Shown: piece by piece, positions 43,728-55,461 of the stretch | Position numbering within the stretch: the stretch's first letter is position 1 | How the letters are laid out: the number at the start of each line of letters is the position of its first letter | Source of the DNA: Bifidobacterium coryneforme | GTDB taxonomy: Bacteria; Actinomycetota; Actinomycetes; Actinomycetales; Bifidobacteriaceae | DNA length: 64,000 bases | Reading direction: 5' to 3' | NCBI RefSeq assembly: GCF_000737865.1 | Contig: NZ_CP007287.1 | Location: 1,040,872-1,104,871 of the forward strand | Program-made: the position numbers and the translations under genes | Notes under the pieces: model-generated | What the model saw: only the letters and a program-made list of their open reading frames with translations | The model's database searches: none | What the model was told of the DNA's origin: nothing

Positions 43728-44291
43728 ATGATCAATGACGACGAATGGCTGGTGGTCATTGACCGCCAGGAGGTATTCGCTCACAATGAGTGGTCCCGTT
43801 GGGCCTGCTCCGACGGCGCCTACTATCAGACTGACAACAATTACACCCGCCTCGCCAAGGCATACGGTAACCGCGTTGCCTACACCAGATACATTGCACC
43901 GCAACCGCCAAAAGGTGCCTGGGTGGAATACATGAAGGTCTGGTCGGAATTTCTGGTGGCCCCCGACGATCCCATGTACGACCTCACACCTGAGACCGCT
44001 GAACTTGCCAAGGGACATCCAATCGTCTCACTCAGCACTTACGGCAAGTGGGGACCTGAATTGCAGGCGGCTGTGGAGGGAACCCAGAAGATAGCCCTTT
44101 GTGGTGTTGCCACTGATGCCTGTGTGTTGCAGACAGCCTTGGCGGCCGCAGATCAAGGCATTGCCGTTCGGTTGGCGGCCGATGCCTGCGCCGGATCTAC
44201 GTTGGAAAATCACAAACTGGCACTCGATACGATGGCCCTGTTCACACCGTTAATCACCATCACAGATACCGACTCGCTGCTAGCAGACTAA
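43728..44291 (+). CDS. Isochorismatase-family cysteine hydrolase
   Basis: A 187-residue hydrolase of the nicotinamidase/isochorismatase superfamily. The catalytic Asp is in WLVVIDRQEVFAH, the Lys probably in LSTYGKWGPELQ, and the Cys in ALCGVATDACVLQTALAAA, giving the D-K-C triad. AAAGGAAA precedes the ATG. As the last gene of the cluster it may deaminate or hydrolyse an amide from the released base, for example nicotinamide, but specificity is not readable. Confidence 0.88.
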   Translation: MINDDEWLVVIDRQEVFAHNEWSRWACSDGAYYQTDNNYTRLAKAYGNRVAYTRYIAPQPPKGAWVEYMKVWSEFLVAPDDPMYDLTPETAELAKGHPIVSLSTYGKWGPELQAAVEGTQKIALCGVATDACVLQTALAAADQGIAVRLAADACAGSTLENHKLALDTMALFTPLITITDTDSLLAD

Positions 44292-44627
44292 TCTCAGGCA
44301 CTTCCACTAGTATAACGTTCACCTTATTCCTCAGAACTTCGTAGCATCTTTACCTCATGACCACGCTCCTCCGATAGCGTTTGCGAATAGTAACTGGTTC
44401 AGTACCGGCATAAACAACCCTGACTCGTTGACATTGATCGCTCTAATCACTGCCAGTTATGTCAACGAGGCAAGCAGGGTCTCTTCAACCTCATCCAGTC
44501 GTTGTACAGCAAATCATGAGTTCATAACCAGATAGAGTCGCATACGCTCTAAAACAAACACCAGGTTTAACAAGGTTCTTAAGTAAACATCCTTCCCCGA
44601 TACTCTTCGAAACCTAAAAGCTGTATA
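44292..44627. other. AT-rich boundary region of the accessory island, with a spaced inverted repeat
   Basis: No gene. CTCGTTGACAT (44424-44434) is repeated in inverse as ATGTCAACGAG (44459-44469), 11 bp perfect with a 24-base spacer. Base composition drops here relative to the gene before, marking the left edge of the foreign-looking segment. I could not find a copy of the tRNA-Arg 3' end in it. Confidence 0.5.
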
Positions 44628-45485
44628 ATGCAATTTGACATTGATGGTCTATCTGCTTTCTTTGTTCCTGCCGCGGCTACAGCTGCGTCATTCTTCTTGC
44701 ATAGACAAGAGCTAAAGGAGAGAATCTTGAACGCAGCAAGAGTACTGCTCAACTTCTTCGGTTCTGGTTCTAGCACCATAAGATTCAGGGATTTGATTAA
44801 TGCGTATGCCGAGGTTTCCAGATTCTTTTCCGAAGCAAAAGCAGATGGTGACGAGAAGGCTTCAATAGTAGTCGAGTGGCTGCCCAATCTATGGGACTGT
44901 ATCGCGCAAGCATTTGATGGGTGCGCCGAGTATGTTGGACCGTACATGGGGGTGGAATTCTCCAGCCAATGTCGAATGTCTCTATTGATTGCTGAAGAGA
45001 TGTTGGACGGGAAGACCAGTACTTATTCTGCTATACGAAGAGAGAAAGTCAAGCAGCTCCTGGATTCTCTACCGGACGAGCTGGATCAACTTTCACTTCC
45101 ACAAGAACTTCACTTATATGTTCTCCGGCTGGCTCGAGAAGTCCGAGTTGCCCTCGACGAATACGCCATTACCGGCGATTTCAAACTGGACGCTGCGTTC
45201 TCTCGTTTGCAGTCCCAGCTTTTCGTTGTTGCTACGCACCTACCGAATGAAACACAACAGAACCGATTCGTCCAATTCCTCACAGACAAATTCATCCCTT
45301 GCATGACCGCGCTTAGTCTCACCATCACAAGCGCTTCTGAGGGGATGAATCTGAAGAGCATGATTGCTCAGCAGATTCAGAGCTCTGCGCTGCAAACGAG
45401 CACTTCATCATCACCACCTAGAATTCCTCAACTCGATCCTTGGACAGAGCAATATAACTCTGATCCCGAGTCTGACGAAACTTAG
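44628..45485 (+). CDS. Membrane-anchored accessory protein of unknown function
   Basis: A 285-residue protein with no recognised domain. Residues 9-25 are hydrophobic (SAFFVPAAATAASFFLHR), followed by a mostly helical soluble part. Nucleotides 44620-44700 are clearly related to the short hydrophobic ORFs at 50181 and 52278 (shared CTGTATAATG, TTTGACATTG and CATTCTTCTT blocks), but here the frame continues instead of stopping after 31 codons. Codon use is more AT-rich than in the chromosome around it. It precedes the basic phage protein and abiH genes. Confidence 0.6.
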   Translation: MQFDIDGLSAFFVPAAATAASFFLHRQELKERILNAARVLLNFFGSGSSTIRFRDLINAYAEVSRFFSEAKADGDEKASIVVEWLPNLWDCIAQAFDGCAEYVGPYMGVEFSSQCRMSLLIAEEMLDGKTSTYSAIRREKVKQLLDSLPDELDQLSLPQELHLYVLRLAREVRVALDEYAITGDFKLDAAFSRLQSQLFVVATHLPNETQQNRFVQFLTDKFIPCMTALSLTITSASEGMNLKSMIAQQIQSSALQTSTSSSPPRIPQLDPWTEQYNSDPESDET

Positions 45486-45670
45486 TTTTAAACTTCCTAC
45501 AGCCAAACACACCTAAATCACCCTGGCTCTTCATAAGCACCTTATCGAAGGCCTCACGCACCTTGTCAGAGAACAAGACCGAACCCAAAAGAAGCCAGAA
45601 AACGCAAATACAGTGATGCAAAAAGCAAGGACCTGGTGCTTTCCATCTCTGATAAGGATTGAGGCAGCGG

Positions 45671-45922
45671 ATGAAATACGGTATGCGCCCCCGTCCCCGG
45701 CGCTCGTTCAAGGCCCGCACCACGGCTAAGTGGAAGAGGCAGGCGAAGAAGGCCCTCATACCCGGGTACGGGAAGAAGGGCATAGGCTGGGTCAGGAACC
45801 CGAGGAAGGCCGCCTACAACAATCGGCAGCGCAGAATGGCCTGGCTAGAAAATGTGGATAAGTCAGCTTATATAGCATCTGAAGCCATCGAAGGAATAGG
45901 AGGCAATTTTGTTGTCAGATAG
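45671..45922 (+). CDS. Small basic mobile-element protein
   Basis: An 83-residue, strongly basic protein. The core PGYGKKGIGWVRNPRKAAYN resembles short proteins often seen on Gram-positive prophages and integrative elements (PGYGKKGMGW..PKKAxYN); their function is unknown. GAGG lies six bases before the ATG at 45671. Its end overlaps the start of abiH, suggesting one transcript. Confidence 0.65.
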   Translation: MKYGMRPRPRRSFKARTTAKWKRQAKKALIPGYGKKGIGWVRNPRKAAYNNRQRRMAWLENVDKSAYIASEAIEGIGGNFVVR

Positions 45923-47156
45923 ACAAGTGCTGGTATTAGGGAATGGTTTCGACCTTCAATGCGGGCTGAAGTCAAGTTTTGCTGACTTCATGCAGACCCG
46001 GATCGCCAGGGTGGGAAAAATAGAGGCCATGCTGTCTTCCGAAGATGTTCCGATGATTACGGTCCAGCGGCCAGACGGCAACGAATTACACGGGAATAAT
46101 CTATCTTATCTGCTTTGGGGAGACGACCTTACCGTATGGGATTTCATTCTTATTGAAGATAAGCAGCTACGAACATGGTACGACGTGGAAGAGTGCATCA
46201 AGGAATGGGTGGACTATAGCTCGCCGTCTGCTCCAAGCAGTCCGCACCTGCGACAAATCTGCGATGCCTTCGTGAAACCCGACAAATATCATTGGCCTGA
46301 CCTAAAGTGCCCAGTAAAAGCACAGCCATGTGTCCTGGCTTACGCAACGGATTTCTACAGCTGGGACGGACAGCCTGGTCCACTTCTAGGCATCCTATTG
46401 GACCAGCTGCATCGTTTCGAGGCCAGTTTTGCCGGATATATCTATAATCAGGTCAGTTGCCATAGTCATTATTCCGCCTGCGCAAACACTCTGATTACGA
46501 ACCTGGCCAACGACGAAATGCCAGAAAAGATCTTTGACGTGGTGTATTCGGAAGGCTGGTATTCGGGACTTCCCGGATCCACCAACATATTGGACTTCAA
46601 TTACACCTCACCAATCATATGGGGCTGGGAGAACTGCCCTACCTGTTTGAACGTCCATGGCCTGGCCGGGGACGGAAACATCATTTTCGGGATAGACGGG
46701 ACGAATCTCATCCCCGAGCAGGAATGCTATGCCAACATCGTCAAATTCACAAAAACCTACCGTATCATGGAGCTCAACAGCACACCACACCCATCATTGG
46801 TCAGCCCCTATCTGTCCAGCGACCCGAACAGCGCGACAAACACAATCAAATTCTTCGGGCATTCGTTGGCGGAAGCCGATTACTCGTACTTCCAAGCCAT
46901 TTTTGACGAGGTCAGCCTATATGAAAGCAACACCCGTTTGATTTTCTATTACAACGAGAGACGTCCGGATGGGAAAAATGCGAATGCGCAGGAGGAGATG
47001 TTCGAGAAAGTCAACCACCTGATCACTACATACGGACAGACTCTCGACAACAAAGACCACGGCAAAAACCTGCTGCACAAGCTGCTGTTGGAAGGCAGGC
47101 TGATCATCAAGCAGGTACCCTTAAACTCACGTGAAGTCCATATCGGAAACAACTAA
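45909..47156 (+). CDS. abiH: AbiH-family abortive-infection protein
   Basis: Phage-defence protein of 415 residues. The diagnostic N-terminus is QVLVLGNGFDLQCGLKSSF, then the mid-protein ILDFNYTSP and NVHGLAGDGNIIFGIDG, and near 314 IKFFGHSLAEADYSYFQAIF, all typical of AbiH (GNGFDL...HG...GHSL). The mechanism is unknown; AbiH stops phage propagation in lactococci. The strong AGGAGG at 45898-45903 serves the TTG at 45909 or 45912. Sitting at the lysis-side end of a prophage, it is probably a lysogenic-conversion gene. Confidence 0.9.
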   Translation: MLSDRQVLVLGNGFDLQCGLKSSFADFMQTRIARVGKIEAMLSSEDVPMITVQRPDGNELHGNNLSYLLWGDDLTVWDFILIEDKQLRTWYDVEECIKEWVDYSSPSAPSSPHLRQICDAFVKPDKYHWPDLKCPVKAQPCVLAYATDFYSWDGQPGPLLGILLDQLHRFEASFAGYIYNQVSCHSHYSACANTLITNLANDEMPEKIFDVVYSEGWYSGLPGSTNILDFNYTSPIIWGWENCPTCLNVHGLAGDGNIIFGIDGTNLIPEQECYANIVKFTKTYRIMELNSTPHPSLVSPYLSSDPNSATNTIKFFGHSLAEADYSYFQAIFDEVSLYESNTRLIFYYNERRPDGKNANAQEEMFEKVNHLITTYGQTLDNKDHGKNLLHKLLLEGRLIIKQVPLNSREVHIGNN

Positions 47157-47160
47157 ACAC

Positions 47161-47199
47161 AAAAACCGCCCCCGCTCCGGCCTTCCGAAGCGAAGGCGA
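47161..47199 (-). terminator. Terminator after the holin region
   Basis: Read on the minus strand, CGCC...GGCG with an internal CTTCGC stem is followed by GGTTTTTG. It closes the minus-strand phage lysis genes and lies between them and the convergent abiH. Confidence 0.55.
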
Positions 47200-47218
47200 T
47201 TGTGTTATGAACAGTCCA

Positions 47219-47445
47219 CTATTTGCTGAGTGCAGCTTTGGCCTCGTTGCCTGCGATGAGCACTCCCAGCGCGTAGATCGTAGTCACGATAGCGTCCGTG
47301 TGGGGCAAGCCCCATATCGGTCCGACGCTGTGGATGAAGGCCCCCAGCAGTGGCAGGAACGCGAGTCCCACCCATTTGAGGATCTGGTAGAGCCAGTCGG
47401 GCAGCCAGTAGGGCCTGCCCCGTCCTCGGAAATCGTATCGGTCAT
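47219..47445 (-). pseudogene. Phage holin with a frameshift at codon 2-3
   Basis: From the ATG at 47445 (preceded by AAGGAGG) the frame runs into unrelated sequence, but the neighbouring frame encodes a typical small phage holin: RYDFRGRGRPYWLPDWLYQI, then LKWVGLAFLPLLGAF and DAIVTTIYALGVLIAGNEA, ending in TAG at 47219. One extra C in the ACC at codon 2 would join start and body (227 nt is one short of a multiple of three). This is either a real inactivating deletion or a sequence error. Confidence 0.75.
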
Positions 47446-47458
47446 GTATGTCACCTCC

Positions 47459-47860
47459 TTAGTAGTTGAGGGTTTCGCCAGCATAGATCAGGCTGGGGTT
47501 GCCGGACCGGTAGCCGTGGATCTGGCTTTGGGGGAAGCCGAGCCTGGCGGCGATCCTGGAGAGCGTATCGCCACGGCGCACGGTCAAGGTCCGGCCACCG
47601 CCGCCGCTGCCGGTAGCGAGACGCTGGCCCGGATAGATGACGCAGGGCGCTCGGATGCCGTTGAGCTGGGCTATCACGGGCCAGGAGCCGCCGAAGACCA
47701 TGTTCAGGCAGTCGCCGGGACGCACCACATAGGTGCCGCTCCCGGTGCCCCCGCCCGTGTTGCCTCGCAGCCGCTCGTTGACCGCGGCCATGACCTCGTC
47801 GTACCGGTTGCCCAACAGGGCGTGCCGCTGCGGGTCGTTGCCGTACTCGCCACGGATCAC
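47459..47860 (-). pseudogene. C-terminal fragment of a phage lysin with LysM domains
   Basis: About 133 codons. It opens with VIRGEYGNDPQRHALLGNRY and DEVMAAVNERL, the segment that links catalytic and cell-wall-binding parts in bifidobacterial phage lysins. Two LysM-like repeats follow: TYVVRPGDCLNMVFGGSW and TLTVRRGDTLSRIAARLGF. The catalytic domain (expected GH25 or amidase) is absent. The fragment abuts the exonuclease fragment, so it is the product of a large internal deletion. The holin gene lies immediately downstream. Confidence 0.8.
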
Positions 47861-48168
47861 CGCCGCAGCGATGCTGCCAGCGTCCCCGACCGGAGGACCG
47901 CCGCATCAGAGGCACGCAGCTCCTCCATGCGCGCCTTACCCTCCCTCGTGCGCAGATTCGGCCTGTCGACGACCTCCGCACCAGTGCCCAGCACCAGCGC
48001 ATGCGCCGCCTTGCCAAAATCCAGAGCATCACCGGACACATCCAGACCATGATCGAGATAATCCACATACGACAACGGCGACACCATGAACCGCTTCAAC
48101 GCAGACTGATCCAACGCCGGGTCAGCGAAGTACTCCCGATCCGCCATCTCCTTAATCTCAAACCCCAT
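47857..48168 (-). pseudogene. N-terminal fragment of a PD-(D/E)XK phage exonuclease (DUF3799-like)
   Basis: A 103-residue piece whose start matches phage RecE/exonuclease VIII-like proteins: PALDQSALKRFMVSPLSYVD followed by GDALDFGKAAHALVLGTGAE. The nuclease catalytic D-ExK region should lie further on and is missing; the frame stops at 47857, within the junction with lysin sequence. All structural genes normally found between recombination and lysis modules are gone. Confidence 0.75.
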
Positions 48169-48202
48169 CAGAAAATCTCCTTGAACTCGGTTTCAACGGG
48201 GG

Positions 48203-48345
48203 TCAACGGCATGGACACATGTCCATCTGTCCATGTGTCCATGCCTCTGATACCACGTTGGGGTCGAGGCAGTACCACCCTGGTTGTTGGTGCAACCTCA
48301 GCCAGTACGCGCCGTTCTTGTCCCTGTAGAAACCGGGATAGACGG
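48203..48345 (-). pseudogene. Out-of-frame C-terminal piece of the 48298 phage gene or a small separate gene
   Basis: The third minus-strand frame reads APVYPGFYRDKNGAYWLRLH and then QQPGWYCLDPNVVSEAW before a TGA at 48203. This looks like real phage coding sequence, unlike the overlapping tail of the 48298 product. The span 48203-48798 is one base short of being in frame. Confidence 0.5.
48210..48243. repeat. Perfect 12-bp palindromic arms
   Basis: CATGGACACATG (48210-48221) and CATGTGTCCATG (48232-48243) are exact inverse copies around a 10-base loop. They lie between two minus-strand phage genes. No T-run follows. Confidence 0.6.
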
Positions 48346-48798
48346 GTGCGGACGACCTGGCCCGCAGGTAGGCGGTACCATGCCCGAGTCCACGCTGAAG
48401 GTCGTAGAGTTGTCACAAACCCATACCCTCCCGCTGCCTTCATCCGGACCGACGACCCGCCACATTCGCCCACGGATGACCACCCTCTCCGCAACGTCTG
48501 CGTCGTCGGGGCAGAGCTGCTCCCATTCGCGCTCGTCCCAGGCCAGCTCTATAGACTGGATGCCCTTGAGCGGATACCAGATACCGTCTTCGGTTTCGAA
48601 GAGCAGACTGAAGAGAGGTGTCTCCAGTTCCGTACCGTTGTCCTCCGGGACCTCAAGCTGCGGGGCATCCAGCCGCACAAAGCCGCTCTGCTTGTCATAC
48701 ACGAGCCGTCCCTCGAGCACGCTGCCACCGTCAAGCAGCACGCGCACATGCTTGCCCTTCATCTCCTCCAGTGCCAATTCGGAATACCATTCATTCAT
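48298..48798 (-). CDS. Phage protein of unknown function
   Basis: A 166-residue product opening MNEWYSELALEEMKGKHVRV with a beta-rich, acidic body (GRLVYDKQSGFVRLDAPQLE; VVIRGRMWRVVGPDEGSGRV). The last 25 residues (PGRPHPSIPVSTGTRTARTG) look like out-of-frame sequence, while a neighbouring frame continues plausibly (48203-48345). The start overlaps the DivIVA-like gene stop in ATGA, so it belongs to the phage early operon. I do not recognise a family. Confidence 0.55.
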   Translation of the reverse strand: MNEWYSELALEEMKGKHVRVLLDGGSVLEGRLVYDKQSGFVRLDAPQLEVPEDNGTELETPLFSLLFETEDGIWYPLKGIQSIELAWDEREWEQLCPDDADVAERVVIRGRMWRVVGPDEGSGRVWVCDNSTTFSVDSGMVPPTCGPGRPHPSIPVSTGTRTARTG

Positions 48799-49058
48799 TT
48801 CTTTTCTCCTTTAACGACTGCTTTCCTTGATTCCCTTGCCTTGCGACCGCTCCTCAACGAACGGCGACGATGACGACGACCGGCATTAACGGCATTCACG
48901 CGACTGTTCGCAACCAACACCGACCGCGACAACCGCTCCACCGTGTCCGCAGCATCATCAAGCACCCGGTCCACCTCATCCGCGTCATACCGGTCAGGAC
49001 GACCGAACCAGCCAGGCCACGAAGTGAACCTCACCTCACGAATCTCACGCGGAGTCAT
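48795..49058 (-). CDS. DivIVA-domain phage protein
   Basis: An 87-residue protein whose first 50 residues match the DivIVA/Wag31 N-terminal lipid-binding domain: MTPREIREVRFTSWPGWFGR followed by DRYDADEVDRVLDDAADTVE, then a short coiled coil and a very basic C-terminus (RRHRRRSLRSGRKARESRK). Wag31 organises polar growth in actinobacteria, so a phage copy could interfere with or borrow host polarity. The ATG at 49058 lies inside the upstream small ORF, and the stop overlaps the next gene. Confidence 0.7.
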   Translation of the reverse strand: MTPREIREVRFTSWPGWFGRPDRYDADEVDRVLDDAADTVERLSRSVLVANSRVNAVNAGRRHRRRSLRSGRKARESRKAVVKGEKK

Positions 49059-49152
49059 CAGAGCCACCAGCCCCACCCCCAAGCCCGTAACAGGCCAGCG
49101 TGCCCGGATCAAGACGCTCCAACTCCAACAAGGACAAATCAGACGATTCCAT
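49045..49152 (-). CDS. Very small phage protein
   Basis: A 35-residue ORF (MESSDLSLLELERLDPGTLA...) with a Gly-rich end. Its ATG overlaps the stop of the gene before it (49139-49141) and its stop overlaps the start of the DivIVA-like gene, so it fills an otherwise unexplained gap in a tightly packed operon. GGTGAGG-like purines lie upstream. Support is context plus packing; no family is recognised. Confidence 0.5.
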   Translation of the reverse strand: MESSDLSLLELERLDPGTLACYGLGGGAGGSDDSA

Positions 49153-49387
49153 CAGACACCACCCTCACCGGCGAGCGAAGCTCCTCACGGATGTCCCACA
49201 CCTCGTCCGGCGTGTAGTACTTCCCGTTGCCGATCTTCCGGCCATGCCCCTTAGCCACCTTGTCAAACTGCCCATCAGGAATCCCGCCCAGCATCTGCTT
49301 GATCTCGTCCGGGTTGTAGAAAAGGTGACCCTGCTGGATGGACGAAGACACAAACTCCTCCTTGAGGGGGTCGTTCTTCCGGGTCAT
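49139..49387 (-). CDS. Small phage DNA-binding-like protein (excisionase type), copy A
   Basis: An 82-residue protein: NDPLKEEFVSSSIQQGHLFY, NPDEIKQMLGGIPDGQFDKV and AKGHGRKIGNGKYYTPDEVW, the last like the wing of MerR/excisionase-type winged helices. The ATGA overlap with the antirepressor gene shows co-translation. A 23-residue relic of a paralogue starts at 51518, also directly after an antirepressor gene, so antirepressor plus this gene is a repeated module. Confidence 0.6.
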   Translation of the reverse strand: MTRKNDPLKEEFVSSSIQQGHLFYNPDEIKQMLGGIPDGQFDKVAKGHGRKIGNGKYYTPDEVWDIREELRSPVRVVSDGIV

Positions 49388-50187
49388 GCCGCCACCTCCA
49401 CATCCTCGCTGCGGACGGCCTCAAGCCGCTGCCGGGTGATGCGGCTGGCTATGAGGTTCAGGCCCTTGGTGGTCAGCCGCACCTGGGCCGCGAGCGCGAA
49501 GGTGGTTCCGTCTTTGCGTTGCCCTGGGTGGCTGTAGCTGCACATGAGGAGGTGTCCTGCTTTGATGCGGTCCTGGCTGGCGAGCCAGTGCCCGTCTCGC
49601 CGGTATATCCACTTGTTGGAGGACAGCCAGTCGGTGAGGTCCTTGACGCGCATGGAGCAGCCGGTGTCGCTGAGCAGCTTTGCCGCTTCACTTATCGAGT
49701 AGGTGCCTTCGGCGTTGGACAGCACGTCGAGTGCGATGGCCTTGGGTTCCAGCTCACCCACCTTCGTCTCTGCGAGCGCCCTGGCTTCCTTCTCTTTCTT
49801 GAGGGTTTGCGCCAGGCGGATCAGATAGTCCGGGTCGGAGAGGGTGTTCTCGATCACGTCCGTCGACATGTAAGCGCCGTGGCGACGGATCGTGGGCAGC
49901 ACGTCATGGGTCACCCAGCGTTGGAACTCGCGGGCCTCCGGCTTATCGGAGCGTAGGACGATCTTGTACAGGCCTGACTCGTTGACGATCCAACCCTCGC
50001 CCTGACGACCTAGATTGAATCTAGACCGTTCATCCTGGTCCAGCCGCTTGGCGAGATCGGAGGCGTTCTGCACTCCCAGCACTTTCGCAACATCGGCAAG
50101 CACCCACCAGGTCTGCCCCGTCTCAAAGGTGAGGGTTCTTACTTGATGGCCCTTGAAGTCGAAGGGCTGTATAATGTCAGTTGACAT
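49384..50187 (-). CDS. Phage antirepressor (Bro-N plus KilA-C/ANT), copy A
   Basis: A 267-residue protein that would counteract the prophage repressor. The Bro-N domain (about 1-110) shows QVRTLTFETGQTWWVLADVA, VNESGLYKIVLRSDKPEARE and FQRWVTHDVLPTIRRHGAYM. A coiled linker follows, then a KilA-C domain from about 150 (YSISEAAKLLSDTGCSMRVK; TTKGLNLIASRITRQRLEAV). Its start codon sits in the near-palindrome AATGTCAGTTGACATT, whose other strand begins a divergent hydrophobic ORF. A 7-bp hairpin lies in its leader. Confidence 0.88.
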   Translation of the reverse strand: MSTDIIQPFDFKGHQVRTLTFETGQTWWVLADVAKVLGVQNASDLAKRLDQDERSRFNLGRQGEGWIVNESGLYKIVLRSDKPEAREFQRWVTHDVLPTIRRHGAYMSTDVIENTLSDPDYLIRLAQTLKKEKEARALAETKVGELEPKAIALDVLSNAEGTYSISEAAKLLSDTGCSMRVKDLTDWLSSNKWIYRRDGHWLASQDRIKAGHLLMCSYSHPGQRKDGTTFALAAQVRLTTKGLNLIASRITRQRLEAVRSEDVEVAA

Positions 50188-50276
50188 TGGATCTACCTAC
50201 TTTCTTTGTCATCGCCGCAGTTGCAGCTGCGGCATTCTTCTTACTTGGGCAAGAATCAGAGGGGATGGGGATATGA
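50181..50276 (+). CDS. 31-residue hydrophobic peptide, copy A
   Basis: TTG-started ORF coding a single membrane segment (FFVIAAVAAAAFFLL). It overlaps the divergent antirepressor start on its left, and its TGA overlaps the ATG of the next membrane protein (ATGA). Copy B at 52278 has the same length and the same FFVIAA core. An in-frame start is needed at TTG because the ATG at 50174 is out of frame. The DNA GCCGCAG/CTGCGGC plus ATTCTTCTT inside it could instead be an RNA terminator. Confidence 0.45.
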   Translation: MTLDLPTFFVIAAVAAAAFFLLGQESEGMGI

Positions 50277-50773
50277 CGCCGAGCATGATCATCGCTGTTA
50301 TTGGAGCCGTGACAGGCATTCTGGGAACCGTGACCGCCGTCATCGCCATCGTCCAGACGCGCAAGGCGAATCAGCTCGCCAAGGACGCGAACTCGATCAG
50401 CCAGCGGGCGCTTTCCGTCAGCGCGGACCAGACGGTCTACGACTGGAGGTTCGAGTTCGACCAGGAGAGTTCTACCCTCACGGTGACCAACGACAGCCCC
50501 AACCCCGCAATGGACGTTACGGTGTCCGTCCGGCACAAAGGCATGACCATAGCTGAAAGCGACATCAACTATATGGACCCCTTCGAAAACGCTCTGTTCA
50601 AATGCGCGCGCCTGAGCGAGAAGATCAGAGACAGCCAGCAATGTAACTACGACATCAATACCGGAAAATTCATATCCTACGGTCCCGGAAACCTCTGTGT
50701 TGACCTCGCCGTTACTTGGACCAGCGCCCTCGGGATGATACGAAGCGAGAAGTTCGAGCAGACCTTCTCCTAA
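50273..50773 (+). CDS. Membrane-anchored accessory protein next to antirepressor A
   Basis: A 166-residue protein with an N-terminal membrane helix (MIIAVIGAVTGILGTVTAVI), a short helical linker and a beta-rich soluble domain (RFEFDQESSTLTVTNDSPNP; AMDVTVSVRHKGMTIAESDI; LCVDLAVTWTSALGMIRSEK) suggestive of an Ig-like fold. It resembles in layout, not in sequence detail, the 52357 product. It lies on the opposite strand to the early phage genes, as superinfection-exclusion or other lysogenic-conversion genes do. No family is recognised. Confidence 0.7.
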   Translation: MTPSMIIAVIGAVTGILGTVTAVIAIVQTRKANQLAKDANSISQRALSVSADQTVYDWRFEFDQESSTLTVTNDSPNPAMDVTVSVRHKGMTIAESDINYMDPFENALFKCARLSEKIRDSQQCNYDINTGKFISYGPGNLCVDLAVTWTSALGMIRSEKFEQTFS

Positions 50774-50789
50774 CCTCAACCAATCCATA

Positions 50790-51038
50790 TCAAGCCGCCA
50801 GCCTGTATCGGCGGTCAGCTTCTTCCATGAGTTGCAAGAAGTCGATTCCCAGTACTTCCGATATCGCCACTATGTCCGATACCGTAAATGGGTATCGGTC
50901 GGCTCGGTTCAAGCGCCGAGAGAAAGTTGCCCAGGGGATGCCTGCACATTCAGCTACCGAGCCCATTGATTTCCCTGACTCGGTTATGGCATCCTTGATA
51001 GCGGATGCTAGCAGATTGGCATATTTACCAGTGTCCAT
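50790..51038 (-). CDS. HTH regulator, Cro/C1 type (switch 1)
   Basis: An 82-residue helix-turn-helix protein: SGKSMGSVAECAGIPWATFS is the recognition region, followed by RLNRADRYPFTVSDIVAISE. The start at 51038 is fixed by AAAGGAG five bases upstream; the longer frame to 51074 runs into the operator. It is divergent from a second HTH gene at 51189, with operator-like palindromes between, so it is probably a phage repressor or Cro. Confidence 0.78.
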   Translation of the reverse strand: MDTGKYANLLASAIKDAITESGKSMGSVAECAGIPWATFSRRLNRADRYPFTVSDIVAISEVLGIDFLQLMEEADRRYRLAA

Positions 51039-51066
51039 GCCCACTCCTTTTAAAAAGAGAAGTTGT

Positions 51067-51085
51067 ACTATCAATTTTTGATAGT
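51067..51085. promoter_or_regulatory. Operator-like palindrome of switch 1, site 1
   Basis: ACTATCA-ATTTT-TGATAGT is a perfect 7-bp-arm palindrome about 28 bases before the minus-strand HTH start. It covers a plausible minus-strand -10 (GATAGT, 17 bases after TTAACA). Confidence 0.7.
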
Positions 51086-51157
51086 GAACTGTTAAAACTT
51101 CATAGCGCCGTTCAAATGGATGCTGTCAACCCGGAGTGTTTCAAAAAGTCATATTGC

Positions 51158-51176
51158 ACTTATCGTTTTTGATAGT
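51158..51176. promoter_or_regulatory. Operator-like site of switch 1, site 2
   Basis: ACTTATCGTTTTTGATAGT shares the right half TTTTTGATAGT with site 1. It lies in the spacer of the plus-strand promoter (TTGCAC at 51154, TAATAT at 51176), so binding would block the 51189 gene. Confidence 0.6.
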
Positions 51177-51188
51177 AATATATGAGTT

Positions 51189-51431
51189 ATGAATGTAAAT
51201 CAGGCTACAGCCAAGGCCCTTCATGCCGCTAGAGTAGTCAGCGGTCTTACATATGACGAGCTAGCAAAGAAAACAGGAATGAACGTGCAAGCCATCTACC
51301 GTGTATTCGGCGCAAAGGGCGAGATAAAGGTGACCCAGCTTGCTTCGCTGGCAGGAGCTATGGGTCTTACGCCACATCAAATCCTTGAGGACGCGCAACG
51401 GATTATGGAGCGCAGCAAAACCGAAAGTTAG
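51189..51431 (+). CDS. HTH regulator (switch 1, divergent partner)
   Basis: An 80-residue single-domain HTH_3-type protein: VVSGLTYDELAKKTGMNVQA followed by IYRVFGAKGEIKVTQLASLA. It is transcribed away from the 51038 regulator across about 150 bases that hold two related operators. It is short for a lambda-type CI and lacks a peptidase domain, so it may be a Cro-like or stripped-down repressor. Its 3' half overlaps the decayed excisionase-like frame on the other strand. Confidence 0.75.
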   Translation: MNVNQATAKALHAARVVSGLTYDELAKKTGMNVQAIYRVFGAKGEIKVTQLASLAGAMGLTPHQILEDAQRIMERSKTES

Positions 51432-51449
51432 CCGCGCGGCCCGCACCTC

Positions 51450-51518
51450 ATGGCCCTGCCGGATGGACGAGCTGACGAACTCGGCTTTGAGAGGATCCTT
51501 CTCCTTTTCCCTGCTCAT
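51450..51518 (-). pseudogene. Excisionase-like fragment, copy B
   Basis: The first 23 codons (EKDPLKAEFVSSSIRQGH) match the N-terminus of the 49139-49387 product, including the VSSSI-QGH block, then the similarity stops abruptly. The start overlaps the end of antirepressor B, as in module A. The remaining frame is unrelated and antisense to the HTH gene. Confidence 0.7.
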
Positions 51519-52291
51519 GCGACCACCCCCATGTCCTTCTGATCGAGGAAGCGGCTGATGAAATACGACTGCCCCTTGCCGGTGACCTTGGGGGTCTTGT
51601 TGATGGTGGTATGGCCGTCCTAATGCACGACGGTCGTCTCCTTGACCCTGAACAGGCCAAGCTCCATGGACTTCTGCGTGGGCATGTTCTTCGAACTGCC
51701 TGACTTCATCAGATACCCGTGCTCGCGCATCCAGGCGAACAGCCTGGTAGCCCCAGTGTCCACCCCGTTGCCCTTGAGGATCTTCGCCAGGTCGCCCACA
51801 AGGATGTCCGCGTGCGAGGCAGTGACCGCATCCGCGAACAGTACCTTCGGCCTTTGCTGGCCAAGCTGCTCCTCCTGTTCGCGGACCTTGGACTGAAGCC
51901 AGCGCATGGAAGCCAAGGCCATCTGCTCGGGAGTCATACGCTCCTGCCCCAGCATGTAACCCCCATGCATACGGATCGACGGGAGCACCTCATGCGTCAC
52001 CCAACGTTGAAACTCATGCACCTCGGGCTTATCCGAACGGAGGACGATCTTGTACAAACCGGACTCATTGACTATGTTGACCGGCTCGTTGCTACGTGAC
52101 CCTAACCCAGAGTTAGGGTCAAACTTGGTCACCTCGTCCGAGTCCAGACGCTGCGCCACCCGACTCGGGTTTGAGAGCTCAAGCGCATCACACACGTCCT
52201 TGAGCACCCACCAGGTCTGACCCGTCTCAAACGTCAGGGTTCTTACTTGATGGCCCTTGAAGTCGAAGGGCTGTATAATGTCAGTTGACAT
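51515..52291 (-). pseudogene. Phage antirepressor, copy B, with an in-frame stop
   Basis: The N-terminal 50 residues are nearly identical to antirepressor A (MSTDIIQPFDFKGHQVRTLT). The rest diverges: a Bro-N domain, then a different linker and a KilA-C domain (HADILVGDLAKILKGNGVDT; RLFAWMREHGYLMKSGSSKN). A TAG at 51620-51622 ends the frame, yet the same frame continues as typical KilA-C sequence (DGHTTINKTPKVTGKGQSYF, ISRFLDQKDM) to a natural stop at 51515. One base change would restore it. The truncated 223-residue form might still be made. Confidence 0.8.
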
Positions 52292-52373
52292 AGTTATCTC
52301 ATTCTTTGTCATCGCCGCAGCTGCAACTGCGGCATTTTTTGTGAGAAAATGTTGTTATGCATTGGGTGAATAG
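52278..52373 (+). CDS. 31-residue hydrophobic peptide, copy B
   Basis: ATG-started ORF with one membrane segment (SFFVIAAAATAAFFV), the same length as copy A and sharing FFVIAA-A-AAFF. Its ATG is part of the palindrome that holds the antirepressor start on the other strand, so the two genes overlap at their 5' ends. Its last 17 bases overlap the start of the 52357 gene, which suggests coupled translation. TATAAT lies directly before the ATG, too close to be its own -10. Confidence 0.5.
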   Translation: MSVDIVISFFVIAAAATAAFFVRKCCYALGE

Positions 52374-52941
52374 CTTCACGGGGACCACGGCGGCATGGGT
52401 GGCCGCGTTCATTTCCTTCATCAGCGTGGTAATCAACCTCTGGATACCAAACAGGCATCGGCCGCAGGCATCGTTCACGCTGATCGAGCACCTGGGCCCA
52501 ATACCTCTGTTCCGACGATTGCAAAAAGTCAACACTCTCAAATTCACTACGTTCATGAATGCCCACGTTGCCTATCATCTTCAAAACGTTGGGGATGGTG
52601 CCGGGTACAACCTGTCCATATCCTTCGTCGATTGCTACGGAAGGACGACCATCAGCACAGAACAGGACCCTTATATCCCAACTATTAACAGGGTCTTCTC
52701 CACTAACGACGACCTATGGGTCTTCGTGAAAAGGAACAGCCTGTGCAAATCGAGCGCCTTGGAAGTGCATTGGGTCACGCCTCCGACTCGGCTGAATCAT
52801 TGCCGTTATCAGCGCATTTCGATTCCTACGTCACCTCACAAATGGGAAATTGCCAGCAGGATCTCCGAAACGGGCGGGCAGTGGTTCCTGCATCGGAGCT
52901 GGCACCATCGTGACCGAACAGGACAGCTGCGTCACCGGTAG
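52357..52941 (+). CDS. Membrane-anchored accessory protein next to antirepressor B
   Basis: A 194-residue protein with a membrane helix at 11-30 (TAAWVAAFISFISVVINLWI) and a beta-rich soluble domain (AHVAYHLQNVGDGAGYNLSI; SFVDCYGRTTIS; ALEVHWVTPPTRLNHCRYQR). The layout equals that of the 50273 product, but the sequences are strongly diverged, as expected for a variable accessory slot. The basic C-terminal tail overlaps the convergent 52826 gene. Confidence 0.65.
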   Translation: MHWVNSFTGTTAAWVAAFISFISVVINLWIPNRHRPQASFTLIEHLGPIPLFRRLQKVNTLKFTTFMNAHVAYHLQNVGDGAGYNLSISFVDCYGRTTISTEQDPYIPTINRVFSTNDDLWVFVKRNSLCKSSALEVHWVTPPTRLNHCRYQRISIPTSPHKWEIASRISETGGQWFLHRSWHHRDRTGQLRHR

Positions 52942-53122
52942 AGCAAACGAGCAAGTGGCAGACGCGAGCCGTAAGGTCGTTCAAGGTCCTCCGGCAGTCG
53001 TCAAGCATCCAGCTGTCAAGATTCTCAGCACGCCGCAAACGTGAGACGCTCACCGGGTTGCACACCGCCGAGACAGCAAGACAGACAATCGCCGCATCCT
53101 GCAACAATTCAGTCCACTCCAT
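52826..53122 (-). CDS. Small phage early protein, membrane-associated
   Basis: A 98-residue product. It has a hydrophobic N-terminal stretch (LLQDAAIVCLAVSAVC) and an amphipathic segment (SRLRRAENLDSWMLDDCRRT; LNDLTARVCHLLVC). The C-terminal 25 residues look random and lie antisense to the 52357 gene. The start at 53122 is one base beyond the stop of the HTH gene upstream, so the two form an operon. No family is recognised. Confidence 0.5.
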   Translation of the reverse strand: MEWTELLQDAAIVCLAVSAVCNPVSVSRLRRAENLDSWMLDDCRRTLNDLTARVCHLLVCSTGDAAVLFGHDGASSDAGTTARPFRRSCWQFPICEVT

Positions 53123-53123
53123 C

Positions 53124-53392
53124 TCACGCCGCCAGACCGGCGTCGGCGAGACGCTGTTCCTGCCGAGCTAGGTCTAGAAGAGCCCAGCCATCAGAGAAGC
53201 CGAGAGCATTGGAAACCTGATCAATTTCTGCCGTTGTCCAGCCAGAATCGCCTGACAGGCGCGCGTTGAGTCGGGTTAGATTTCGCCCCCCCCCCCCCAG
53301 CCAAGGCGTCTAGAAAGTACCTTCTTGCTGATGCCTGACCTGCCTCGTTCTGCTTCGATTGCCTTATTCAAGTTCTTCGCGAAGTCATTCAT
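53124..53392 (-). pseudogene. HTH regulator broken by a 13-base G/C tract (switch 2); possibly phase-variable
   Basis: From the ATG at 53392 the product reads NDFAKNLNKAIEAERGRSGI then SKKVLSRRLGW and enters a run of 13 G on the coding strand (C at 53286-53298). With 13 G it stops after WGGGGEI. With 11 or 14 G it continues as RNLTRLNARLSGDSGWTTAE, IDQVSNALGFSDGWALLDLA and RQEQ to a TGA at 53124, giving about 89 residues. The body on both sides looks like a small Cro-type regulator. The tract length decides whether it is functional. Confidence 0.7.
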
Positions 53393-53554
53393 TGTTGCTT
53401 TTTTCAACTCAATTGAGTTGGTATTTGTTTATAGTAACCTTTCCCGGTTATTTGTCAACTCATATGAGCTGGCACTTAGGAAAAGGACTTCCGCTTGGCC
53501 TATCTAACAGCGCAATAGAGTTGACAAATAACTCTATTGAGTTAATCTCGTCAT
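53393..53554. promoter_or_regulatory. Divergent control region of switch 2 with three AACTC-N4-GAGTT operators
   Basis: Operator-like sites occur at 53405-53420 (CAACTCAATTGAGTTG, perfect), 53456-53471 (CAACTCATATGAGCTG, one mismatch) and 53530-53543 (AACTCTATTGAGTT). TTGACA at 53521-53526 with TAATCT at 53543-53548 points right, and a minus-strand TTGACA with TATAAA points left. All promoters are overlapped by sites, the classic layout of a repressor switch. Confidence 0.75.
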
Positions 53555-53827
53555 ATGGTTAGAAACAGCGAATTACCCGAAATGGACCCGTTTTCTCGGA
53601 TCATTTCCGCTTCCGTCAAGGCCTTGGCCGCCAAGAAACGGATGTCAAATTCCTATATAGCGGGACAAATTGGCAAATCCCCTACATACGTGTCATTGCG
53701 CATCAGAGGACTTGATGCGTGGGATACTCATGACCTAAGCGCTCTCGCCCAGCTTTTTGACTACACGAGCGCATTTGGCATTGTGGACGAGGCTCGCGGG
53801 CTATCGGAATCCGACACGCCTCACTAA
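53555..53827 (+). CDS. HTH regulator (switch 2, divergent partner)
   Basis: A 90-residue XRE-type protein: IISASVKALAAKKRMSNSYI, then AGQIGKSPTYVSLRIRGLDA as the helix-turn-helix. It is divergent from the poly-C regulator across the AACTC-N4-GAGTT operators. The -10 at 53543-53548 would place the transcript start on or next to the ATG at 53555, implying a leaderless mRNA. It is a candidate prophage repressor although it lacks a C-terminal multimerisation domain. Confidence 0.75.
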   Translation: MVRNSELPEMDPFSRIISASVKALAAKKRMSNSYIAGQIGKSPTYVSLRIRGLDAWDTHDLSALAQLFDYTSAFGIVDEARGLSESDTPH

Positions 53828-53955
53828 GCAGCGACCCCACTGCTCGCATATCGCAGCGCCTCTTTATCTCCTTCGATACCACAAAGCTAAAACAGGTGCA
53901 GCTCTCTGCACTACATCGCTTTAGTACTACATGTGCTTCGTTGGCTGTATACAAT

Positions 53956-54033
53956 TCAAGTTCCTTGTCTATGTGTCTTTTGCGTTCCGCGACTACTCCG
54001 ACGCACTGTTAACAGAATCCGTGTAGACTGCAT
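53956..54033 (-). CDS. Very small ORF with a hairpin-embedded Shine-Dalgarno
   Basis: A 25-codon ORF (MQSTRILLTVRRSSRGTQKT...) whose ATG is preceded at six bases by AAAGGAGGTG. CACCT-GAAAGG-AGGTG can form a stem that hides this site. The peptide is basic, not hydrophobic, and I recognise no family. The strength of the ribosome-binding site is the only reason to list it. Confidence 0.35.
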   Translation of the reverse strand: MQSTRILLTVRRSSRGTQKTHRQGT

Positions 54034-54065
54034 AGCAAGCACCTCCTTTCAGGTGTAAGTGATTG

Positions 54066-54100
54066 AAGGGGTCCAGCTTCTTGGCGGGAGAGGGCCCCTT
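54066..54100 (+). terminator. Intrinsic terminator
   Basis: AAGGGGTCC and GGGCCCCTT pair over 9 bp (one G-U) around a 17-base loop, followed by TTTTA. It would end plus-strand transcription coming from the 53555 regulator. Confidence 0.75.
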
Positions 54101-54592
54101 TTTACATGCCATCGGCGCTCCACCTCTACAGAGAGTCAGAGCGACCCAAGCGCTTTCACCAAACCAACACACTTTGTTCGAATGGTGATTTAAAGATATG
54201 ACTTTGCCGACCGGGTGTCAATTTGGATGGGGAATGCCAGTTGGGCCCGATCGCATTCCAAGAGACTGCGGTTGTTCACCGAGAGGAGCTCCTTAATCTG
54301 TCCGTCTGCGAGGCGGATTAGTTGATTTGTTCCAACAACCTTACACGACACTCCCGATATGCGGGAACGTTATACCCGTTGGAATCACTGGTATTCGACC
54401 CCTCGAACTATCCGCCTGGACCGTTGCGGTAGCTGACAGAGACCGACTCGCTGACCAGCCGGATACCGTTAACGCTCACGGTCTGAGCCTATCTTTGTTC
54501 GCCACACCCGGAATTCAGGTTTCTTTAAGGTTGGTGTGAGGGTTCGCCCCGGCTGGTAGTCTGCTGAGAGTCACTGCGGACAAGGAGCCGAA
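54101..54592. other. Unassigned region between the island regulators and the lipoprotein gene
   Basis: About 490 bases. A 70-codon open frame (54327-54539) has plausible composition but no ribosome-binding site or family; it may be a gene remnant. No integrase or RNA gene is recognised. Confidence 0.35.
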
Positions 54593-55171
54593 ATGAAAAG
54601 ACCAGCAGCCATCCTCACCGCCTCCCTGGCACTCTTGCTCACCCTGTCCGGATGCGGGTCCCCCGGCACCGGGGCGACGGGGCAACAGCACAACGGAGCC
54701 GCCAAATCCACGCGAAATCCCGAGCTGAATGAACGGGGCAACCTTGTCAGACATGCTGGCGACACAGCCCGGGCCCTGGACTCCAAGGGCAAGGTGCAGG
54801 CCGAATGGACTGTAAACAAAATCGTGACCGACCCGACCTGCACGGGCGCCGACAGCGAACCCCCGGAAAACGGGCACTTCGTCGAACTGGACATGCAGGC
54901 AAGTCTGTCCAACGACTCCGACACCGATTGGTTGGGCATCGGATCTTCCGCGACATGGAGGTTCATCTACAAGGACGGCACCCTGTGGAGCGGGAATACC
55001 GGCTCGTTTCACGCATACGGGTGCCTGCCTGCGGCTGAGCAGATGCCTGGGACCCTTATCAGGGGAACCAAGGCACAAGGCAAGGTCATCTTTGACGTGC
55101 CATCCCTGGAGGGGTCCCTCTACTACGAGTACGACGGAGAGAACCCCGGATGGGAATACCCGATCGGCTGA
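54593..55171 (+). CDS. Predicted lipoprotein (DUF4352-like)
   Basis: A 192-residue secreted lipoprotein. The signal peptide ILTASLALLLTLSGCGS gives a lipobox LSGC with Cys21. The mature part starts with a flexible Gly/Thr-rich stretch, then a beta-sandwich-like domain (VQAEWTVNKIVTDPTCTGAD; GHFVELDMQASLSNDSDTDW) resembling DUF4352/telokin-like domains of actinobacterial lipoproteins. AAGGAG precedes the ATG. A terminator follows, so it is a single-gene unit. It may be chromosomal or island cargo. Confidence 0.8.
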   Translation: MKRPAAILTASLALLLTLSGCGSPGTGATGQQHNGAAKSTRNPELNERGNLVRHAGDTARALDSKGKVQAEWTVNKIVTDPTCTGADSEPPENGHFVELDMQASLSNDSDTDWLGIGSSATWRFIYKDGTLWSGNTGSFHAYGCLPAAEQMPGTLIRGTKAQGKVIFDVPSLEGSLYYEYDGENPGWEYPIG

Positions 55172-55229
55172 TCGGGTCCAGACGACCACCCGGCAGGCTC
55201 GAGGCCGGGTCCTGGTCCAACAATCTTCT

Positions 55230-55251
55230 GCCCCGTCGCCGCGGGGCTTTT
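55230..55251 (+). terminator. Terminator of the lipoprotein gene
   Basis: GCCCCG-TCGCCG-CGGGGC is a perfect 6-bp GC stem followed by TTTT. Confidence 0.8.
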
Positions 55252-55407
55252 CCATACCTAGACACCACCCGCCAAGAGGGCAGGCGGGGCAAAGCCCGTG
55301 TCAGCGCAGCAGCCTCGCTCTGCGGGATGCCGCATCCACCGTGACCTTGAAGTAGCCGGCGGGGCTGTTCCTTTGCCCGGGAGTGTCCGAACTTTCCGAT
55401 GCACTTT

Positions 55408-55427
55408 AGTATACATATAGTATACAT
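55408..55427. repeat. Tandem AGTATACAT repeat, 11-bp period
   Basis: AGTATACAT occurs at 55408-55416 and 55419-55427. Each copy contains the palindrome GTATAC, and the 11-base spacing places both on one DNA face. It lies just beyond the tRNA-Arg terminator. Confidence 0.6.
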
Positions 55428-55461
55428 TTCCGCCCCATCGGGAGGCTGTTTGGATAAGAGA

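Follow-up and report, generated by a model that had tools for sequence, protein, structure and literature searches.

Does a long homopolymer inside a phage-type regulator gene serve as a genetic switch, or is it a trace of decay? The question arises from a run of 13 C in Bifidobacterium coryneforme, within an analyzed stretch of 64,000 nucleotides (hereafter the window). A preliminary description had placed the run inside a repressor gene of a prophage and read it as a stochastic lysogeny control. The tract is real: it occupies exactly positions 53286-53298, as C13 on the plus strand and G13 on the minus strand, within the phage-type helix-turn-helix (HTH) gene HTH3, as had been described. No other G/C run in the 64-kb window is longer than six bases, and such runs are expected at most about 0.03 times there under Markov models of order 1 to 6, and about 0.002 times by geometric extrapolation. 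By both expectations the homopolymer exceeds chance, as would be expected of a poly-G contingency locus, and a 13-base run so far beyond geometric extrapolation could reflect retention.

A second property of such loci, that a change in length opens or closes the reading frame, is also found. From its start codon (ATG at 53392, minus strand), HTH3 is open for 38 codons with 13 G, for 88 with 11 G and for 89 with 14 G, which agrees with the frame arithmetic given earlier. The upstream half matches positions 5-34 of the phrog_4583 profile, weakly on its own (E 0.1), and the downstream half positions 37-71 (E 0.003), while the gene read through the tract covers both segments and thereby matches the family across its whole length (E 1.6e-7). 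Because the two matches are colinear and near-contiguous, and the read-through product matches as well, both halves are taken to be one XRE-type regulator gene. Apart from the tract they are free of other lesions, so that the claim of clean regulator coding sequence on both sides stood up.

HTH3 is part of the second of two tandem immunity cassettes, Ant1-ORF-HTH1-HTH2 followed by Ant2-ORF-HTH3-HTH4, which lie in a larger strain-specific element with the following features.

44282-55452, no strand: strain-specific element from genome comparison, consisting of a prophage remnant and an AbiH-like gene, between an isochorismatase gene and tRNA-Arg
47459-48168, minus strand: deletion junction of an endolysin C-terminal stump (47459-47860) and a truncated exonuclease VIII-like gene (47857-48168)
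49384-50187, minus strand: Ant1, antirepressor of cassette 1, by family match
50790-51074, minus strand: HTH1, intact phrog_4583 regulator of cassette 1, by family match
51189-51431, plus strand: HTH2, intact divergent regulator of cassette 1
51518-52312, minus strand: Ant2, BRO-N/KilAC antirepressor with an in-frame TAG (open part 51620-52312)
52357-52941, plus strand: small ORF between HTH3 and Ant2 with a hydrophobic N-terminus, putatively moron-like
52826-53122, minus strand: small ORF directly downstream of HTH3, possibly coupled to it (ORF only)
53122-53392, minus strand: HTH3, frameshifted XRE/Cro-CI regulator gene of phrog_4583, by profile matches and predicted XRE fold
53286-53298, minus strand: G13 tract within HTH3 (C13 on the plus strand), through which the frame runs into a TAA
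53401-53543, no strand: HTH3/HTH4 divergent control region with palindromic operator-like sites AACTC-N4-GAGTT
53431-53458, minus strand: sigma70-like HTH3 promoter TTGACA-16-TACTAT between operator-like sites, by consensus match only
53555-53827, plus strand: HTH4, intact divergent XRE regulator, CI-like by position

The arrangement bears directly on the role that was proposed for the gene. A lysogeny repressor of the CI type would be found on the lysogeny side, opposite the Ant early operon; HTH3 instead occupies the Cro or early position beside Ant, on the Ant2 strand and divergent from HTH4. Judging from this order, HTH3 would be Cro-like and HTH4 CI-like, and a role of HTH3 as lysogeny repressor is not supported. 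The control region between the two appears intact, with a near-consensus promoter and operator-like sites at 53406-53419, 53457-53470 (one mismatch) and 53530-53543, plus a partial copy at 53509-53522. The window-wide count of the motif is unexceptional, as 14 of 100 shuffles reach three, yet all three sites fall in one 160-base region. Cross-talk between the cassettes was also considered and is unsupported, cassette-2-type operators not being found beside cassette 1. Within cassette 2, the TAG of Ant2 sits within and truncates KilAC, with an open tail beyond the stop, and the ORF at 52357-52941 is without a family match.

The surrounding element is a defective prophage remnant. It is missing from a conspecific genome (G014), where other DNA lies between the same isochorismatase and tRNA-Arg flanks. 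None of the tyrosine integrases of the genome lies within the window, no serine integrase was matched among the element ORFs scanned (the genome-wide scan covered the tyrosine type only), and no virion or structural genes were found in the element. Lysis is represented by the endolysin stump, a C-terminal piece of 133 aa fused to the truncated exonuclease VIII-like gene; a related prophage in another genome (G010) has a full lysin of 414 aa, and its matching ends lie about 30 kb apart. Cassette 2 is not part of that prophage, in which 51420-53932 of the window has no full counterpart. A comparison of the left edge of the element with the tRNA edge gave no direct repeat that would mark att ends. 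As neither an integrase, nor virion genes, nor an intact lysin was found, and Ant2 carries a nonsense codon, flipping of the tract cannot control lysogeny of this element, and the stochastic lysogeny control suggested for it lacks support.

Several other observations were made on the element and its site. At the junction of the two cassettes (51430-51535) lies a truncated second copy of a small gene found at 49139-49387, suggesting, from the sequence arrangement, tandem prophages fused by deletion. An AbiH-like abortive-infection gene (45909-47156) forms the left end of the remnant, and a putative lipoprotein gene (54593-55171; phrog_25640, function unknown) is situated between HTH4 and tRNA-Arg. 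The conspecific genome harbors a HamA/HamB pair, i.e. the Hachiman anti-phage system, at the same site (L097:9696-13144), and the gene content of the tRNA-Arg/isochorismatase site is suggestive of a hotspot for defence genes and prophages. In a study of bee-gut prophages, isolates of B. coryneforme and B. indicum were without intact prophage, and one B. indicum prophage prediction contained a purine-cytosine permease and an isochorismatase (PMC10259446). Since both of these families flank the site of the element here, that prediction is probably at the same place.

The tract can be viewed also as a member of a class. The genome (one contig of 1,755,151 bp) holds 18 G/C runs of at least 10 bases and three of at least 13, as opposed to about 3.5 and about 0.06, respectively, by geometric extrapolation, a rough model built from 148 kb. 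In the genus, 26 of the 27 genomes contain poly-G runs of at least 10 (between 0 and 98 in each of the 27), and A-runs this long hardly occur. Of nine tracts (at least 10 bases) that could be aligned between this genome and the conspecific one, six are not of the same length in both, and a tract in a surface-protein gene that is in frame here, at 13, is out of frame there, at 14. Tracts of this kind thus change length within the species, and from their behavior the HTH3 tract is probably mutable too; to this extent the preliminary description is supported. A sample of 30 13-G tracts from the genus includes many located behind signal-peptide-like sequences in long surface proteins, and HTH3 is the sole HTH regulator recognized in it. 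Two paralogous surface proteins (L039, G000:C1:416598-416610, and L146 in G014) carry poly-G soon after the signal peptide, one of them being in frame at 13 G here and out of frame at 14 G in the conspecific genome. In another prophage region of the conspecific genome, a G10 run stands where the open frame of an AbiH-related fragment begins (L151 1502-1511; G014:C1:1193424), possibly another mutable or broken gene. Bee-gut Bifidobacterium genomes accordingly have many poly-G tracts that vary in length within species, and many of those with readable context are in surface proteins, making phase variation directly testable in a simple gut system.

What the HTH3 tract encodes is less favorable to a switch. 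In alignment with relatives, the tract-encoded residues come directly after the turn glycine and before the recognition helix. With 11 G the insertion is WGGG, i.e. four residues more than the family-length turn, and with 14 G it is five more; these extra residues are absent from all correctly read relatives aligned, including the closest intact one. As the insertion consists of a T plus the G run, any in-frame length keeps at least one extra residue. The AlphaFold2 model of the 11-G form, based on an input alignment of four window proteins only, reached a pLDDT of 84.7 and a pTM of 0.76, with five helices kept and the insert modeled as a longer loop. It resembles XRE regulators, e.g. C.Esp1396I (Z 12.5, rmsd 1.4, 78 aligned). 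The model suggests that the XRE fold could survive the insertion, a claim about fold and not DNA binding, and since the control region looks intact as well, slippage could restore the regulator. While the phage-type nature of the gene had been recognized at the outset, both this insertion in the DNA-binding turn and the defective state of the remnant had been overlooked.

The insertion also speaks to a simpler account, namely that the tract really has 11 or 14 G, that HTH3 is simply in frame and that the sequenced length is a sequencing or assembly error. Homopolymer lengths are error-prone, the halves of HTH3 are otherwise clean and the tract length annotated in B. breve was not the one prevailing in the population (PMC9187656). 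The turn insertion would nevertheless persist at either length, other tracts of the same assembly give sensible frames and a wrong length would still leave a long tract, and we regard such an error as quite unlikely to be the explanation.

Comparison with homologous prophages, which had been proposed as a check, spoke against a conserved tract. The closest intact relative of HTH3 that was found (in G179; 32% identity, E 8e-13) precedes an antirepressor-like gene, has a diverging HTH4-like partner (36% identity) and is without the tract. Neither is there a G run of at least eight bases in the prophage regions retrieved from G010, G018 and G025. The tract was accordingly seen in none of the relatives compared, which are distant (about 32% identity). 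Protein searches with HTH3 and HTH4 of viral contigs, genome contigs and a phage collection gave no close relative, and exact flank patterns had no match in the viral or genome collections, leaving the locus without a second copy in these collections. Searched at the nucleotide level, phages yielded only an 86.6% match over 164 bases (about 54020-54183), outside HTH3. Slippery homopolymers can in principle cause transcriptional or ribosomal slippage, and the G run might by such programmed slippage allow the 13-G template to yield some full-length product. With no tract conserved in relatives, this is very improbable.

The reading we prefer, with a probability of roughly 0.58, is that a slippery tract now inactivates a Cro-like regulator in a relic cassette, as a by-product of relaxed selection rather than as a maintained switch. 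The G homopolymer, of a class prone to slippage in this lineage, would have arisen by expansion inside the turn of the HTH3 helix-turn-helix, in what would be the Cro-position XRE regulator of the second immunity cassette of a defective remnant. With 13 G, HTH3 is off, its translation ending at codon 38, and replication slippage to 11 or 14 would be expected to restore the open frame in some cells. Decay is favored because the insertion hits the DNA-binding turn, the relatives are tract-free and the cassette carries a second lesion. Counted against it are the intact operator-like sites, promoter and HTH4, the lesion-free halves of HTH3 and the confident XRE fold predicted for the 11-G form.

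A retained switch stays under consideration because the control region looks intact and the frame is otherwise clean. Slippage among 11 to 14 G would then toggle HTH3 and change repression at the HTH3/HTH4 operators, with stochastic superinfection immunity or early-promoter control, and not lysogeny of the element, as the effect. The length of the tract, a genome with demonstrated tract variation, the fold predicted for the in-frame form and the replication slippage demonstrated at G tracts of B. breve pili (PMC9187656) all argue for such a phase-variable regulator. Against it stand the defective remnant with its interrupted Ant2, a Gly-rich insertion and a tract that no relative has in common, and a position unlike that of the surface loci, where the tract comes right after the signal peptide. 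On balance we hold this to be unlikely, if far from negligible. A more specific variant, speculative and held to be improbable, is that the remnant has been domesticated and retains the slippery tract, that a fraction of cells stochastically expresses the regulator as a bet-hedged immunity to phages using AACTC-N4-GAGTT operators, and that, through the Gly loop, DNA binding would be tuned by the length of the tract as well. Provided that the tract does flip and that its in-frame product is functional, this would be a slippage-controlled phage immunity regulator. A limited literature search, by title or abstract, gave no clear precedent for a phage repressor or immunity regulator under such control.

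Among known systems, the small XRE phage regulators of phrog_4583 (Cro/CI type) are matched colinearly by the halves of HTH3, which likewise belongs to a divergent pair with operator-like sites; HTH3 departs from them in being frameshifted as sequenced and in a turn that would be longer by 4-5 residues if the tract had 11 or 14 G. Divergent cro-ant/CI immunity modules occur in Gram-positive temperate phages, and the position of HTH3 on the Ant2 strand, the divergent HTH4 and the shared operator-like sites are in line with these; the cassette differs from them in being a tandem duplicate with an interrupted Ant2 in a defective element. The sortase pili of B. breve (bbr_0113, bbr_1889), for which G-tract replication slippage has been measured, provide the closest parallel for the tract itself, i.e. 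an intragenic G homopolymer of about 10-12 in Bifidobacterium whose length sets the frame (PMC9187656). That tract occurs in several species with measured variation, whereas the one in HTH3 is known from one remnant at one assembled length, and it lies between the signal peptide and the pilin body (PMC9187656), whereas the HTH3 tract interrupts a phage regulator at its DNA-binding turn.
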